In this document: positions 39,689 through 50,156 of the stretch, one piece after another | Layout: every line of letters begins with the position of its first letter | Position numbering within the stretch: the stretch's first letter is position 1 | Source: an uncultured SAR86 cluster bacterium | GTDB taxonomy: Bacteria > Pseudomonadota > Gammaproteobacteria > Magnimaribacterales > D2472 | Direction: 5' to 3' | Assembly (NCBI GenBank): GCA_902602185.1 | Contig: CACKPV010000002.1 | Location: forward strand, 274,506-338,505 | DNA: 64,000 bases | Notes under the pieces: generated by a model | The model's input: only the letters and a program-made list of their open reading frames with translations | Told to the model about the DNA's origin: nothing | Databases searched by the model: none | Position numbers and translations under genes: made by a program

Positions 39689-41150
39689 GAAAGATAATAT
39701 TTTTCTCCCTTTTTTATTTGGACTTATTGGTATTCTAGCTTTTGAACCGTTTGGCATAAAATTTTTATTATTTTTAAGTTACGGTTATTTATTTTATAAA
39801 CTTACTTACCAAGAAAAAAACATAAGTTTCAAAACTAAAATCTCAACCTTAATCTCTTGGTTTATAGGCCACTGGTTGATTGGAACTTCATGGATAATAG
39901 TGAGTATTTACTATTATGGAAATACAGGTTTTGCCGTTTCTATTATTTTATTTTTATTATTATGCTGTGCTTGTTTTGTGTTCTACTTTTCACCCTTTTT
40001 ACTTCTAAAATTTTATAAAAAGAAATATCCTTTTAAAGCATTACTTTTGTTTATATCAGTTCTTACTTTAATTGAATTAGGTAGAAATTTTTTTCTTGGT
40101 GGTTTTCCTTGGCTAAGACCAGGAATTATTTTTAATGAATCCATTTTAAGTTTTTTACTACCAGTTATTGGAACAACTGGAGCTTCGTTTTTGTTTTATT
40201 TTTTATGCTTTATTTTTATTAGATATATAAAAATCAATATCTACTCATTGATTGTTTTAATTCTCTTTGGAACTATGTTTCAAAATAATTATTATACGAA
40301 AATAGATAATGAAAATTTAACTAAAGTAAATTTTTCTTTGGTTCAACCTTCTACAGACCCTTTCACTAAATATGATCCAAAACATTTATTGTCAGTTGAG
40401 GAGACACTGATCAATTTAAGTAAAAGTGTTCCAAGTAACTCAGAATTTATTGTTTGGCCTGAAGCCCCTTTGCCTTATCCTAATTCAGACTTAAGATTTT
40501 TAAACATAATAAAACAACTAAAAAAACCCTTAGTTACTGGAACTTGGACATACAGTGGTGACAATCTACATAATTCAATTCTTTCTACATCGGACAATAA
40601 CCTTTACAACAAGGTAAAACTTGTCCCTTTTGGTGAATATATCCCTTTTGAAAGAATCCTAAGGGGACTAATAGATTTTTTTGATCTTCCTATGTCCCAG
40701 GTAAGACCAGGAAAAAATAACATTACAAGTTTAAAGGTTGGAGATTACATTTTTAGCCCATTTATATGCTTTGATATAAGTTTTGAGAATTTATTTAGAA
40801 AGAATATTGACAAAAGTTCCTTATTTGTAATTAATGCTTCTAATGATTCATGGTTTGGCAATTCAATAGGGCCATATCAACATTTAGAAATTTTAAAAAC
40901 TCGAGCAAATGAAAATAAAATTTTTATACTTAGAGCAACCAACGATGGAATATCAGCTGTTATATCTAATAAAGGAACAATTGTTGATAAAATTGAAAAA
41001 GGTGAAAGTACTGTTTTAAATTCTTATGCGTACACAGGAACAGAGCGCAGCTTTTATAATCTTTTTGGTTATTATATTGTATTTATAGTAATGTTTTTCT
41101 GCTTAATTATAAATTTTGATACAATTAAAAGAATTTATGAAAGTAATTAA
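39630..41150 (+). CDS. lnt: Apolipoprotein N-acyltransferase
   Basis: Multi-TM N-terminus plus nitrilase domain (VWPEAPLP, LVPFGEYIPFE, PFICFDISFE, NASNDSWFG). Start uncertain because it overlaps the preceding CDS. Confidence 0.92.
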   Translation: MSLLQIKEKLKKLELISKIKKDNIFLPFLFGLIGILAFEPFGIKFLLFLSYGYLFYKLTYQEKNISFKTKISTLISWFIGHWLIGTSWIIVSIYYYGNTGFAVSIILFLLLCCACFVFYFSPFLLLKFYKKKYPFKALLLFISVLTLIELGRNFFLGGFPWLRPGIIFNESILSFLLPVIGTTGASFLFYFLCFIFIRYIKINIYSLIVLILFGTMFQNNYYTKIDNENLTKVNFSLVQPSTDPFTKYDPKHLLSVEETLINLSKSVPSNSEFIVWPEAPLPYPNSDLRFLNIIKQLKKPLVTGTWTYSGDNLHNSILSTSDNNLYNKVKLVPFGEYIPFERILRGLIDFFDLPMSQVRPGKNNITSLKVGDYIFSPFICFDISFENLFRKNIDKSSLFVINASNDSWFGNSIGPYQHLEILKTRANENKIFILRATNDGISAVISNKGTIVDKIEKGESTVLNSYAYTGTERSFYNLFGYYIVFIVMFFCLIINFDTIKRIYESN

Positions 41151-41676
41151 GTTTTTTTCTATATTTCTTATATTATATTGCCAGCCAGTCTTTTCATATT
41201 CAATTTTAATTGATATCTCTGAACAAAGATTATATCTAAAAAAGAATGATAGTACCGTTATAAAAAGTTATTCAATATCATCATCATTCTTAGGTGAGGG
41301 TCAAGTTGAGAATTCTTTTAAAACACCCCTAGGAAATCATATTATAGCCAAAAAAATAGGAGAGAATGCTGATATTGGAACAATTTTCAAGGAAAGAGTT
41401 AATACGGGAAGAATAGCTAGCATTATAAAAGAAAAAAAAGACATTGCTGATGATGTTATCACTTCTAGAATTATGTGGCTAGAGGGGATTGATCATGGGT
41501 ACAATAAAGGAGGTAATGTTGACTCATTTAATCGTTTCATTTATATCCATGGCACAGCAGAAGAGGGACTTATAGGATCAAAAGCATCCCACGGCTGTAT
41601 CAGAATGTTCAATGACGATGTGATAGAATTATTTAAATTGGTTAATAAAGGGACAAAAGTCAATATAGTTCTGTGA
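41137..41676 (+). CDS. L,D-transpeptidase (YkuD domain)
   Basis: IYIHGTAEEGLIGSKASHGCIRMFNDDVIELF; signal peptide from the ATG at 41137. Confidence 0.88.
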   Translation: MKVIKFFSIFLILYCQPVFSYSILIDISEQRLYLKKNDSTVIKSYSISSSFLGEGQVENSFKTPLGNHIIAKKIGENADIGTIFKERVNTGRIASIIKEKKDIADDVITSRIMWLEGIDHGYNKGGNVDSFNRFIYIHGTAEEGLIGSKASHGCIRMFNDDVIELFKLVNKGTKVNIVL

Positions 41677-43844: not shown

Positions 43845-43898
43845 ATTTGACTTAATTTTATTATACCCAAAAAAACATATAATATTTTATAAAAAGTA

Positions 43899-43928
43899 TT
43901 GATAATGTATTATAAATATGCATAATAA
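43899..43928 (+). promoter_or_regulatory. Putative sigma70-like promoter for the candidate sRNA
   Basis: TTGATA at 43899-43904, 18-nt spacer, TAATAA at 43923-43928; predicted start ~43935 coincides with hairpin 1. Confidence 0.4.
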
Positions 43929-43933
43929 TAGAT

Positions 43934-44007
43934 GTCAGCACTTCTCCCCCTTATTCTGCTGACCAAACCTCTGAATGTTGTGGAGGGTGCAAACCCTCCA
44001 TTTTTAT
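43934..44007 (+). ncRNA. Candidate novel small RNA: C-rich-loop hairpin followed by intrinsic terminator
   Basis: Stem GTCAGCA(43934-43940)/TGCTGAC(43957-43963) around the 16-nt loop CTTCTCCCCCTTATTC; then TGGAGGGT-GCAA-ACCCTCCA (43981-44000) followed by TTTTTATT. Upstream TTGATA (43899) - 18 nt - TAATAA (43923). Confidence 0.55.
43981..44007 (+). terminator. Rho-independent terminator with GCAA tetraloop
   Basis: Perfect 8-bp stem TGGAGGGT/ACCCTCCA, GNRA tetraloop, T-rich tail on the + strand only. Confidence 0.8.
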
Positions 44008-44018
44008 TAGGAAAAAAT

Positions 44019-44093
44019 ATGAAAGACAAATTAGAGTTACTATTTTTGATAACAATTTTTGTTGCTTCTGTTGCTGCGATAACGCCTGTATAA
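44019..44093 (+). CDS. Putative 24 aa hydrophobic small protein upstream of gpx
   Basis: AGGA-spaced ATG; MKDKLELLFLITIFVASVAAITPV, a single TM segment. Confidence 0.35.
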   Translation: MKDKLELLFLITIFVASVAAITPV

Positions 44094-44101
44094 TTCTTTC
44101 G

Positions 44102-44629
44102 ATGAAAAATCTATTACTTGTACTTGTTACATTTACTTCCATTGGCTCATTTGCCTGCGACAATCTTTTGAATGAAGAAATGAGATTGCTTGACTCCACT
44201 GTGAAAGAAAATCTGTGTAAATATGAAGGTAAAGTAATGCTTGTTGTGAATGTTGCCAGCAAATGTGGCTATACTGGACAATATCAAGGACTACAAAGCC
44301 TTTACGAAAGATTCAAGGATCAAGAGTTTGTTGTTATTGGAGTTCCGTCACGTGATTTTTTTAGTCAAGAGTTTTCCGATGAATCTCAGATTGCTGAATT
44401 TTGTGAAACCAATTTTGATGTTTCATTTCCAATGTACTCGACTGTGCCTGTTAAAGGAAAAAATGCTCATCCATTTTACAAGAAACTATCATATCTAACA
44501 GGTAGTGAACCAACCTGGAATTTTAATAAATATTTGATTTCTAAAGATGGTAAATCTGTTAAGTTGTTTAACTCAAAAGTTTTACCAGAATCAAACGAAC
44601 TTACCGAAGCAATTCTAGAACTTTTATAA
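44102..44629 (+). CDS. Glutathione peroxidase family protein with signal peptide
   Basis: VVNVASKCGYTGQYQGLQSLYERFKDQEFVVIGVPSRDF, WNFNKYLI; Cys at the catalytic position. Confidence 0.92.
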   Translation: MKNLLLVLVTFTSIGSFACDNLLNEEMRLLDSTVKENLCKYEGKVMLVVNVASKCGYTGQYQGLQSLYERFKDQEFVVIGVPSRDFFSQEFSDESQIAEFCETNFDVSFPMYSTVPVKGKNAHPFYKKLSYLTGSEPTWNFNKYLISKDGKSVKLFNSKVLPESNELTEAILELL

Positions 44630-46839: not shown

Positions 46840-49146
46840 CTAGAATTTCAAACGAATTTTTGCAGTCAGTATTTCATTCCCAGGATTTTTCCAGGAAGAC
46901 TCTAGTAAACTATCAAAATTACTAAGATCATCATTTGTAAAAAAACTATCTGCACGTGTGTAAACTAAGTAAAAGTAGGACAGTGGGGCAAACTCATATC
47001 TGTACCTAATTTGTAAAGAATTTTCAGATAAGCTAAATGGTTGTAATTCAAAATCAGAAACAAAGATCTCTCCAGTATTTTGTGCTTCAAGAGAAATAGG
47101 GTTATTTGCTTTTATCATGATTATTTGATTTTTTAACCTTAATTCATGTTTATTACCTCTCAAAAAGGTCATTGTAAAATCTAAATTTCTTTGTGATTTT
47201 GTAAAAGCTCCCAACCTGTTAGTCTCAACCCATTTGAGCCATTCTTGCTCTTTAATCTTTTTTGAACCCAGATATAACTGGAATTCTTCATTAGGAAAAT
47301 AACTTACTCCAAATCGGTATGTGTTTCGTTTATTGCCATCAGAGTCCCAAGTTGGATATGCTCCAGTTCTTGAATATCCGATATCTCCACCAAAAGACCA
47401 TTTTTTATAGCGGGGGGAATCAAAATCAAGATTTATAGTCTTTTCATTCATTACATTTATGTATGGAGCAACTTCATTCTTCCTAGTAAATGTGGAATTT
47501 TTCCCTTCATTTTTAATCGACATTGATACTTCAATACTTGCATTTGATTTTAACCACAACTCAGTTCTAGTCCATAAACCCCTTGGTGATTTTTTGCCAT
47601 CTGTTGTCATGGATTGAAAAATACTAATGTGCGATTGTCTGCTCTTGAAGAGGGACTCAATAGGAAAGGAATTCCTATCAAACTCAAATCTATTGTAAGC
47701 TTTTATTTCATCATTTCTTTGCAGATATCCCATATCATTTAGATCGAGCTTTTTATCAAAATATTGGAAACCAAATGTATTTTCATACTCAATTTTAGGG
47801 AAATATTTAATATCGAATCGAAGACCGTTACCTGAACCATTTGCAGTTTTTGAATTGAGAATTGCACCTGAAATTTTTGTTTTATTTATTGCTGTATTTT
47901 CAATATCAAGAGCAATGACATCAGCTTCATTACCAACGAAATTGTTAACTGTTCGGGTTGATAATAGTCCAACTTTATTTACAGGGTTGTTTGATCTAAT
48001 TCGGAACGCATAAAAGTCTCTACCTTTTGTAAAAGGTGAGTCACTTTCACTAGCACTTAAAAACCCGTAATCAAAATTTTTCTGTTGCGATGTATGTCGG
48101 AGTGCTAAATCCAATTCACTATATTCTTGTTGCGAGCTATTACATAAGTCTTCATCATAAGTGCTTTCACATTGATAAGTTGGTTTGGAACCAATTCTTC
48201 GAGTATTAATAACATAAAAATCATCTCTGCCTCCTCTTACTTCAAATAAAGTTTGATTCTCTGTAAAGAATGCACGTTTTTCAGAAAAGAAAGTCTCAAT
48301 AGCACTAAAGTTAATAACTACTTCATCAGTTTCAACCTGACCAAAATCAGGGTTTATTGCTAAGTTGGTTTGATTCCCATCACCTCTGTTTAAAAAAATA
48401 TCAACACCAACTTTCTCAATTTTTTGTTTAGCAGCAAAGTCCTCAGACAATGTTATGTAAGGAAAAAAACTATTTTTTCTTACTGAATAATTATCGATTT
48501 CTAGTGATGGTAAATCATAAATAAAAGTATTTCTCATATAGTTTGTTTTGGCAGTGGCAAAAGAACTCTGTTCTTGTGCATACCACCTCCATGCGATAAA
48601 TCCAATCTTCCTTCTATCACTTTCAACCGACTGCATAGGTGCAATACTCCATGGGATAAAGATTTCAGTAGTCCAAAAATCGTTATTTCGACTGGTAGCA
48701 CTCAACCAATCCCCATCCCAATCTGTATTCTCTCTGTTCCCACTTCGATAGGTAGCATCTGAAATGGAGCCACCCAAAGATACAGTAAATCCGTATGCAA
48801 CTTTGCTATTCCCATCAAAATCGATAGTTACACCATTTTTATCTCCTCTATCATCCCAGTTATCTCTAATGTGATTCTTTTGACGAATTGTTTGTTGATC
48901 TTGTTCATTTATAAATCCAACATAAATTCCTTCAGCATTACTAAAAATTTTAACTGTTGTTTTGAGCTTAGGGTCTTCAAAATTAAAAGGAACAATAGTT
49001 GTAAACTCTTCTAAAACAGTAGCTTTTTGCCACTCCTTTTCATCAAGATTCCCATCAATCACCATGGAGGAAAGGGGTCCTATAAAGGCTAATAAAAATA
49101 GTTTCTTAAAAATGCTGACCTCCCAATTCAGTAAAGACTGTATCAA
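46840..49146 (-). CDS. Outer-membrane DUF5916-type protein with N-terminal carbohydrate-binding family 9-like domain
   Basis: IDGNLDEKEWQKAT..., NPDFGQVETDEVVINFSAIETFFSEKRAFFTENQTLFE, beta-barrel C-terminus ending KIRLKF. Confidence 0.82.
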   Translation of the reverse strand: MIQSLLNWEVSIFKKLFLLAFIGPLSSMVIDGNLDEKEWQKATVLEEFTTIVPFNFEDPKLKTTVKIFSNAEGIYVGFINEQDQQTIRQKNHIRDNWDDRGDKNGVTIDFDGNSKVAYGFTVSLGGSISDATYRSGNRENTDWDGDWLSATSRNNDFWTTEIFIPWSIAPMQSVESDRRKIGFIAWRWYAQEQSSFATAKTNYMRNTFIYDLPSLEIDNYSVRKNSFFPYITLSEDFAAKQKIEKVGVDIFLNRGDGNQTNLAINPDFGQVETDEVVINFSAIETFFSEKRAFFTENQTLFEVRGGRDDFYVINTRRIGSKPTYQCESTYDEDLCNSSQQEYSELDLALRHTSQQKNFDYGFLSASESDSPFTKGRDFYAFRIRSNNPVNKVGLLSTRTVNNFVGNEADVIALDIENTAINKTKISGAILNSKTANGSGNGLRFDIKYFPKIEYENTFGFQYFDKKLDLNDMGYLQRNDEIKAYNRFEFDRNSFPIESLFKSRQSHISIFQSMTTDGKKSPRGLWTRTELWLKSNASIEVSMSIKNEGKNSTFTRKNEVAPYINVMNEKTINLDFDSPRYKKWSFGGDIGYSRTGAYPTWDSDGNKRNTYRFGVSYFPNEEFQLYLGSKKIKEQEWLKWVETNRLGAFTKSQRNLDFTMTFLRGNKHELRLKNQIIMIKANNPISLEAQNTGEIFVSDFELQPFSLSENSLQIRYRYEFAPLSYFYLVYTRADSFFTNDDLSNFDSLLESSWKNPGNEILTAKIRLKF

Positions 49147-49684
49147 ATTTTAAGTCATGATTTTCTGCAAAGTTTTCTGAAGTTAATTGAAAAGCATAAC
49201 CTAACCCTATTATAGTTTTTTTTGGATTATTATTTTTAAAATTACAAAGGAGTTTGTCGAAGTAGCCATTACCAAACCCTAATCTGTAACCTTTTGAATC
49301 AACACCAACAAGAGGCAAAATTACAAGATCAAAGTAATTCAGGCTCATAGCATAATGTGTATTTTCAACAACAAAAGACTTGGCTTCAGAATTATCTTTT
49401 TTCACTTTCTTTATGAAGACCTGATTAACATTCCCAACTTCTTGCTTTGCAAGAAATATATTTAAACCCTTTTTAAGCATAGATACGATCAGTTTTTCAG
49501 TATTGATTTCGTTGTTAATTTGAAGATATGTAAGAATATTTTTATGGTGGTTTAATTCAAGAAAATTAAAACAAAATTCATTGACTTTGTTTGAGCAATC
49601 AATAACTTCATCGGGAGAAAGAGCTTGCCTCCGCTCAATGAGTGATATACGTAATTTGTTTTTCACATTTATGCTCGGAGGCAT
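49106..49684 (-). CDS. ygfA: 5-formyltetrahydrofolate cyclo-ligase
   Basis: FDLVILPLVGVDSKGYRLGFGNGYFDKLL; Met at 49684 (MPPSINVKNKLR) preferred because the 49702 start lies in the 6S RNA. Confidence 0.88.
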   Translation of the reverse strand: MPPSINVKNKLRISLIERRQALSPDEVIDCSNKVNEFCFNFLELNHHKNILTYLQINNEINTEKLIVSMLKKGLNIFLAKQEVGNVNQVFIKKVKKDNSEAKSFVVENTHYAMSLNYFDLVILPLVGVDSKGYRLGFGNGYFDKLLCNFKNNNPKKTIIGLGYAFQLTSENFAENHDLKFDTVFTELGGQHF

Positions 49685-49857
49685 GAACCAATTCACCGTC
49701 ATATGTAATCCCTGAACCCGATGTCCAGGTGGTGAATATCATGTTAAATCAGGCTTCTCTTTGTAGATAATGCACAACATTAACAGAGGAAAATCACCTT
49801 CAGTTTAATTATAGGTTCAAAAATAACTTACATATTAACGAATGAACCAGAATACTC
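49684..49857 (-). ncRNA. ssrS: 6S RNA (boundaries approximate)
   Basis: Minus strand contains GAGAAGCCTGATTTAACATGATATTCACCACCTGGACATCGGGTTCAGGGATTACA, closely matching the E. coli 6S 3' half (GAGAAGCCTTAAAACTG...ATTCACCTTGAACCAAGGGTTCAAGGGTTACA). Closing stem (AATATGTAA/TTACATATG), zapA-ssrS-ygfA synteny, TTATACT -10 upstream. Confidence 0.88.
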
Positions 49858-49889: not shown

Positions 49890-50156
49890 CTAAGTTTGTA
49901 AAGCACGATCAATTTTTTCAATTAAGCTCAGAACTTCTTCTGTTGATGGGATGTCATTACTTTCATCATTCACTAACTGGTTATTGGCTAGACTTAATCC
50001 AGCTAAAATTAATCCATTTTCTTTATCTTTGATGTTGCTTAGTTCTGAATTTAATAATTCAGCTGCAGCTAAAAGCTGTTGCTTTTCATCTGCTGGACAT
50101 GCAAGAGTTATGTCTCTCCCAAAAACCCTCAAGGAAACTTTTTCGATATCACTCAT
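49890..50156 (-). CDS. zapA: Cell division protein ZapA
   Basis: VSLRVFGRDITLACPADEKQQLLAAAELLNSEL. Confidence 0.88.
   Translation of the reverse strand: MSDIEKVSLRVFGRDITLACPADEKQQLLAAAELLNSELSNIKDKENGLILAGLSLANNQLVNDESNDIPSTEEVLSLIEKIDRALQT

Follow-up and report, generated by a model that had tools for sequence, protein, structure and literature searches.

A conserved two-hairpin RNA gene in SAR86 bacteria with TonB-dependent receptors as candidate targets

Introduction

The enterobacterial small RNAs (sRNAs) MicA, RybB and OmrA/B lower the synthesis of outer-membrane beta-barrel proteins and need Hfq, and the C/U-rich loop of the cuckoo (CcsR) RNAs has been proposed to meet ribosome-binding sites (RBSs). 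Cuckoo RNAs are stress-linked, are encoded beside a small-protein gene whose product is a DUF1127 RNA-binding protein, and occur as tandem copies processed from one precursor with an RpoH promoter (PMC10253847). The sRNA ChvR of Caulobacter crescentus acts independently of Hfq to repress a TonB-dependent receptor, pairing via stem-loops at two sites, one of which lies just upstream of the start codon (PMC6237742). In the Firmicutes RNAs FsrA, RoxS/RsaE and IsrR, short C-rich unpaired stretches meet G-rich Shine-Dalgarno sequences (SDs) with little or no need of Hfq (PMC9410917, PMC8216469).

Here we describe a two-hairpin RNA gene of SAR86 that, as far as could be checked, has not been described before. 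It lies in a 64-kb stretch of DNA, referred to in full length as the window, from a low-GC genome of 1.09 Mb in 12 contigs (82% complete). ChvR is, by analogy, the closest functional precedent: like the SAR86 RNA as proposed below, it is Hfq-independent and acts on a TonB-dependent receptor, but it is alphaproteobacterial, is under ChvG-ChvI control, has mainly one target (chvT) and needs a long second pairing site, and no sequence relation is claimed (PMC6237742). With the cuckoo RNAs the SAR86 RNA shares an adjacent small-protein gene and a hairpin with a C/U-rich, anti-SD-like loop; it differs in its single copies, its operator and its partner, a membrane peptide of 24-33 amino acids, no DUF1127 partner being found at the RNA. 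The cuckoo analogy drawn in an earlier note on this DNA is fair for the C-rich loop and does not extend to descent, a DUF1127 partner or an Rfam match. Like MicA, RybB and OmrA/B, the SAR86 RNA would lower outer-membrane beta-barrel synthesis, but those RNAs have other seeds and promoters and depend on Hfq, which is not detectable in SAR86. FsrA, RoxS/RsaE and IsrR resemble it in their C-rich unpaired stretches and belong to another phylum, with other regulators and targets and no homology shown.

A structured RNA upstream of gpx

We refer to the window's family within the order SAR86 as f1 and to other SAR86 families as f2, f3 and f4; R1 denotes the covariance model of the RNA used for genome searches. 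The plus strand between the leftward fadB-like gene and gpx carries promoter-like sequence, two hairpins and a U-tract (Table 1), and all parts of the two-hairpin element that the earlier note had placed in this gap are present in the sequence. The 5' end of the predicted sRNA was set from the -10 element and the 3' end from the U-tract. Its calculated fold of -25.5 kcal/mol was matched by 0 of 200 shuffled sequences.

Table 1 Features of the RNA locus in the window
Feature	Position	Strand	Evidence or remark
Promoter/operator: UP-like TATAAAAAG, then TTGATAAT-GT-ATTATAAATATG-CATAATA	43888..43930	+	Consensus of 65 sRNA-type and other sites; -35 TTGATA 43899-43904, -10 CATAAT 43921-43926 (placed from relatives)
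Predicted sRNA, ~74 nt	43933..44006	+	R1 match G000:C2:318433-318512, 61.5 bits, E 5.5e-11; fold z = -4.3
Hairpin 1, GTCAGCA/TGCTGAC	43934..43963	+	Arms 43934-43940 and 43957-43963; both-side changes in 7/8 modelled pairs
C-rich loop CTTCTCCCCCTTATTC, proposed seed	43941..43956	+	CCCC in 58/59 copies
Unpaired linker CCTCTGAAT (family form CUCUGGAAU)	43968..43976	+	CTCTG(G)AA in 47/59 copies
Hairpin 2, GTGGAGGGT-GCAA-ACCCTCCAT with U-tract, terminator-like	43980..44008	+	Terminator scan; compensatory change in 4/8 pairs; hairpin proper 43980-44001, GCAA loop, then TTTTTATT
Membrane micro-peptide, 24 aa, MKDKLELLFLITIFVASVAAITPV	44019..44093	+	SD TAGGA 44008-44012; behind 51/59 copies
gpx, glutathione-peroxidase-like with signal peptide	44102..44629	+	PF00255, Pfam E 7.9e-29

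Searches by blastn over 61 genomes recovered the element throughout f1, and 45, then 59, copies were aligned. The 59 copies share an anatomy of operator-promoter, hairpin 1, loop CUCCUCUCCCCCUAU, linker CUCUGGAAU, hairpin 2 (GGAGGG/CCCUCC) and a U-rich tail. Hairpin 1 occurs as GUCAGCA/UGCUGAC, UCAGCAA/UUGCUGA, ACCAACA/UGUUGGU or GCUAGCA/UGCUAGC and hairpin 2 as GGAGGG/CCCUCC, GGAGAG/CUCUCC or GGAGGA/UCCUCC, both stems varying by compensation while the loop core CUCUCCCCCUAU is nearly invariant. The earlier note had taken a lack of covariation in relatives as grounds against an sRNA. Covariation is present in both stems, with both-side, pair-keeping changes in 11 of the 16 pairs (58 distinct sequences; a level that none of 500 shuffles reached) and 94.5% of cells paired vs 37-58% in slid controls, counts that lean towards the proposed structure because the alignment was fitted to it. 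RNAalifold on a MAFFT alignment, which was not structure-fitted, returned the same two helices, with double changes in 8 of 13 pairs. We regard positions 43933-44006 as almost certainly a real, functional structured RNA.

No family in Rfam 15 reaches its gathering cut-off over the element, the best scores being far below, permissive thresholds included, and full-text literature searches, with most subscription journals outside their coverage, turned up no regulatory RNA described from SAR86. The suggestion of a novel sRNA is thus supported, with the corrections given below. A scan of the whole window against Rfam 15 found 6S RNA as its sole family. The 6S RNA (RF00013, 58.6 bits; 49681-49856, minus strand) adjoins a 5-formyltetrahydrofolate cyclo-ligase-like gene (49106-49702) and a zapA-like ORF (49890-50156), its usual gammaproteobacterial place.

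At least four T residues follow within 8 nt of hairpin 2 in 50 of the 59 copies; at the U-tract position, seven other genomes of the window's genus have AAGTCTAA, AAGTTTAA or AAGTCTTA. The claim that the RNA has its own terminator thus stands for the window genome, which has a good U-tract, and is not valid for every member, since the tract is lost in these seven congeneric genomes. The promoter proposed earlier, TTGATA-N18-TAATAA, keeps its -35 element; conservation in relatives, where the f1 consensus is TTGATA-N16-TATAAT, places a spacer of N16 and CATAAT as the -10. Because a sigma-70 promoter scan by itself performed at chance (6 found vs 5.6 expected), the case is carried by conservation.

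Taxonomic range

A covariance search in related genomes, as the earlier note had advised, gave R1 matches in about 50 of the 55 listed f1 genomes, covering all ten genera (E <= 1e-9). No match outside f1 was found at E 1e-4 in a class sample of 229 genomes, and the RNA was not found in the gammaproteobacteria sampled outside SAR86. Three weak R1 matches in f4 (G087, G099 and G054) are genuine homologues on reading: they have the promoter CTATTGATATTATAAAATAAAT or a near form, a GUCAGUC/GACUGAC stem, the loop UCUCCUCUCCCCCAU and a GGGGC/GCCCC terminator-like hairpin, followed downstream by the same type of micro-peptide and then gpx. An L,D-transpeptidase-like gene lies upstream of the f4 homologues; in the window such a gene is found at 41116-41676, with the fadB-like gene between it and the RNA. 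As the f4 homologues are syntenic, the RNA arose before f1 and f4 separated, if not earlier. The RNA family is new and, as far as searched, confined to SAR86.

Weak R1 matches in f2 and f3 were set aside on reading: they are either terminators of the ordinary kind or a hairpin of another type, located between polA and engB. This hairpin, which carries a CUCUCUCCCC loop, is possibly an independent C-rich-loop sRNA of f3. In L412-L417 (f3, genus g15) it is strictly conserved as CCCGUCAGCA/UGCUGACGGG with loop UCUCUCUCCCC, between polA and an engB-like gene (for example near 787 on the reverse strand of L412), where E. coli has Spot 42.

Flanking genes and stand-alone copies

The micro-peptide ranges from 24 to 33 amino acids among copies, with a hydrophobic second half, invariant Glu, Leu and Phe columns in the alignment and no Pfam match, and it is followed by gpx in families f1 and f4. 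Eight of the 59 copies are not followed by an ORF. Several of these stand-alone copies lie ~1 kb from a pseudoazurin operon (genus g6; L113-L116) and others elsewhere (L020, L026, L122). The CUCUGGAAU linker is conserved in copies preceding the peptide-gpx operon and absent from nearly all stand-alone copies.

This arrangement bears on whether the element acts in cis on the micro-peptide-gpx operon, as a leader or attenuator with a factor-dependent stop at hairpin 2 and no role in trans. Such a leader would account for the 51 of 59 copies placed directly before the peptide ORF, with its SD a few nt after hairpin 2, and for the same arrangement in f4. It does not account for the eight copies that have promoter, hairpins and loop yet no ORF behind, nor for a loop conserved beyond the needs of a spacer, and no conserved pairing in competition with hairpin 2 is apparent. 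Because stand-alone second copies keep promoter, hairpins and loop, the RNA is not only a gpx leader, a concern voiced in the earlier note; we consider a purely cis-acting element unlikely, and an RNA acting in trans is the reading we hold with good confidence.

A shared operator

The promoter/operator, 29 nt in length, was searched for as the pattern TTGATAWTNNAWTATAANNATNNATAATA with <=2 mismatches; 59 of the 61 genomes contained it one to four times each, and the reversed pattern gave almost no sites. In the window's own genome the sRNA is the only site of the full operator. Elsewhere, sites that do not belong to the RNA precede pseudoazurin (copper protein) genes in genera g2, g5 and g9 and an operon of a 60-aa membrane protein followed by pseudoazurin in g6 and g8 (pseudoazurin directly read in L116), and the other sites are extra copies of the RNA. 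The 60-aa protein under the operator in L105-L107 and L113-L116 is conserved (MITNVQEATAEE...NDYFMAMKFDPLVLFVVIPAVIQIVV...) and has no Pfam match. In genus g5 (L108-L112, L123, L126) the distance from the -10 TATAAT to the start codon of pseudoazurin is just 5-10 nt, which suggests leaderless mRNAs. A box at etfB in genus g9 was not retained, being conserved only in g9 and missing the upstream part; it may be a plain strong promoter. From these sites, the operator would define a small regulon of sRNA, micro-peptide, gpx and pseudoazurin.

The operator core, TATTGATAAT-NN-ATTATAAATA, is an even palindrome across the -35 element and spacer. The full box including the -10 is specific, unlike the palindromic half alone, for which (<=2 mismatches, own genome) several of the best sites were read inside coding sequence (glutathione S-transferase, katG). 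An AT-rich palindromic operator would suit a Fur-controlled, iron-sparing sRNA like RyhB, PrrF or FsrA that acts on metabolic iron-protein targets, as would a co-regulated copper protein that could stand in for an iron protein and the presence of one Fur-family protein at most per genome. However, the palindrome does not match the classical 7-1-7 Fur box, fur promoters are without the operator, for which reason an autoregulated Fur was also dropped as owner of the box, and the classic target sdhC does not have a G-rich RBS, its 5' regions in 17 f1 genomes containing no GGGG RBS. We judge an iron-sparing sRNA very unlikely. The sdhC genes of f1 genomes (L261-L286) have no SD, and many have a conserved ACATTTGT(C/T)ACT(T/C) before the start instead. 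A Fur-family gene was not found in G000, G001, G004, G005, G007 and G008, six of the ten genomes of the window's genus, which are 78-90% complete, so that either loss or an assembly gap is possible; other SAR86 genomes have exactly one such gene each.

Hfq and candidate targets

A check for hfq, also suggested in the earlier note, found no Hfq (PF17209) in any of 26 SAR86 genomes by a search that was positive in 5 of 14 control genomes, E. coli included. Its absence fits a strong C-rich seed.

Targets were analysed by gene class. Receptors were found by their Plug domain in eight genomes (loci L308-L411). A GGGG run lay <=22 nt from the start in 34 of 70 f1 receptors vs 9 of 202 non-receptor genes (p 6e-16), where control starts were the first ATG, receptor starts drew in part on signal-peptide logic, and the 34/70 receptor count, made before refinement of the starts, rests on a rule nearer that of the controls. 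Five of the nine control genes with GGGG were misfiled receptors, leaving 4/197 (~2%) after correction, and secreted-like controls had none (0/56). Half of the own genome's receptors (7/14) carry the run. The median duplex energy with the loop was -9.9 kcal/mol for receptors vs -3.7 kcal/mol, and the conserved loop beat 200 of 200 permutations in pairing receptor sites. The G-run is followed by A in 31 of the 34 and most often preceded by TA, which fits the UCCCC-UA context of the loop. The best sites include atagggggagttATG in G015, with 10 consecutive pairs to CUCCCCCUAU, catagggggaaactATG in the same genome and tttgggggagataATG in the own genome. The proposal that the C-rich loop meets RBSs thereby gains a concrete candidate target class in the TonB-dependent receptors, with GGGG enrichment and duplex energies behind it. 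A search of the 61 genomes with a longer loop complement (ATRGGGGGRGRGG, one mismatch) gave no further candidates: the sites fetched, the RNA's own antisense left aside, lie inside genes such as rpsL, lipB and gidA, and no start codon is among them.

GGGG is a suboptimal SD, and receptors have GGGG rather than AGGAG/GGAGG in a ratio of 34 to 11 vs 4 to 7 in other genes, which hints at a reason other than SD function for the excess. Receptors also pair better with the 16S anti-SD than other genes do, so the receptor G-run may be simply an SD. With refined starts, GGGG occurs in 15 of 29 outgroup SAR86 receptors vs 35 of 68 f1 receptors, and the RNA was not detected in the outgroup genomes whose receptors were counted; family f2 has no known counterpart RNA, unlike f4 (at least three genomes) and f3 (the hairpin). 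An apparent f1 excess over outgroups (34/70 vs 9/30, p 0.12) was gone with refined starts, and no co-evolution is therefore claimed. About half of SAR86 receptor genes carry a GGGG(G)A RBS order-wide, whatever the RNA's role. Since GGGG is equally common in other SAR86 families, we treat receptor targeting as a well-supported hypothesis.

A trans-acting sRNA with other targets, either a few strong-SD mRNAs or another RNA, would make the receptor match a by-product of G-rich SDs. GGGG receptor sites in SAR86 families where the RNA is undetected agree with this, and the target scan went by class and not genome-wide. On the other hand, no other class seen comes near the receptors in enrichment, and of the GGGGAG sites before ATG checked in the own genome, a subset, those at true starts belong to two TonB-dependent receptors and the rpsE-rplR junction. 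Other targets are a less probable reading that we nevertheless take seriously. Far less credible is that the C-rich loop is a protein-binding site of a decoy or sponge RNA and not a pairing seed. C-rich single-stranded loops are able to bind proteins and the UGGA-containing linker is kept in 47 of 59 copies, but each RNA has a single loop where known decoys have repeated motifs, and the complementarity to receptor RBSs would be left unexplained. On balance, we lean towards TonB-dependent receptors as the main targets of the RNA.

Proposed mechanism and significance

The model that we favour, with somewhat more belief than doubt, is of an Hfq-independent base-pairing sRNA that would block receptor translation as part of a small redox- or metal-linked regulon. 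A redox or metal cue would cause the operator's regulator to release or activate the shared promoter, and the sRNA, the peptide, gpx and (in other genera) pseudoazurin would be switched on jointly. At hairpin 2 the transcript would be terminated or processed to give the ~74-nt sRNA, and some transcription would run on into peptide and gpx; processing or read-through would have to be commoner in the seven congeneric genomes, where the U-tract is lost. Without Hfq, the CUCUCCCCCUAU loop would pair with receptor RBSs of the form A/U-A-GGGG(G)-A and so block the start of receptor translation, reducing outer-membrane nutrient uptake. A broader version, in which C-rich-loop RNAs of f1, f4 and possibly f3 form an order-wide Hfq-free switch that acts on the G-rich RBSs of about half of the receptors and shuts off much of outer-membrane uptake while copper protein, peroxidase and micro-peptide are induced, is offered only tentatively.

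The present results yield a covariance model for a new RNA family. SAR86 are among the most abundant uncultured heterotrophs of the surface ocean and take up nutrients via TonB-dependent receptors. If the model is true, this one sRNA would give a major marine carbon uptake route a switch that can be tested, and would exemplify riboregulation in a streamlined genome without Hfq.
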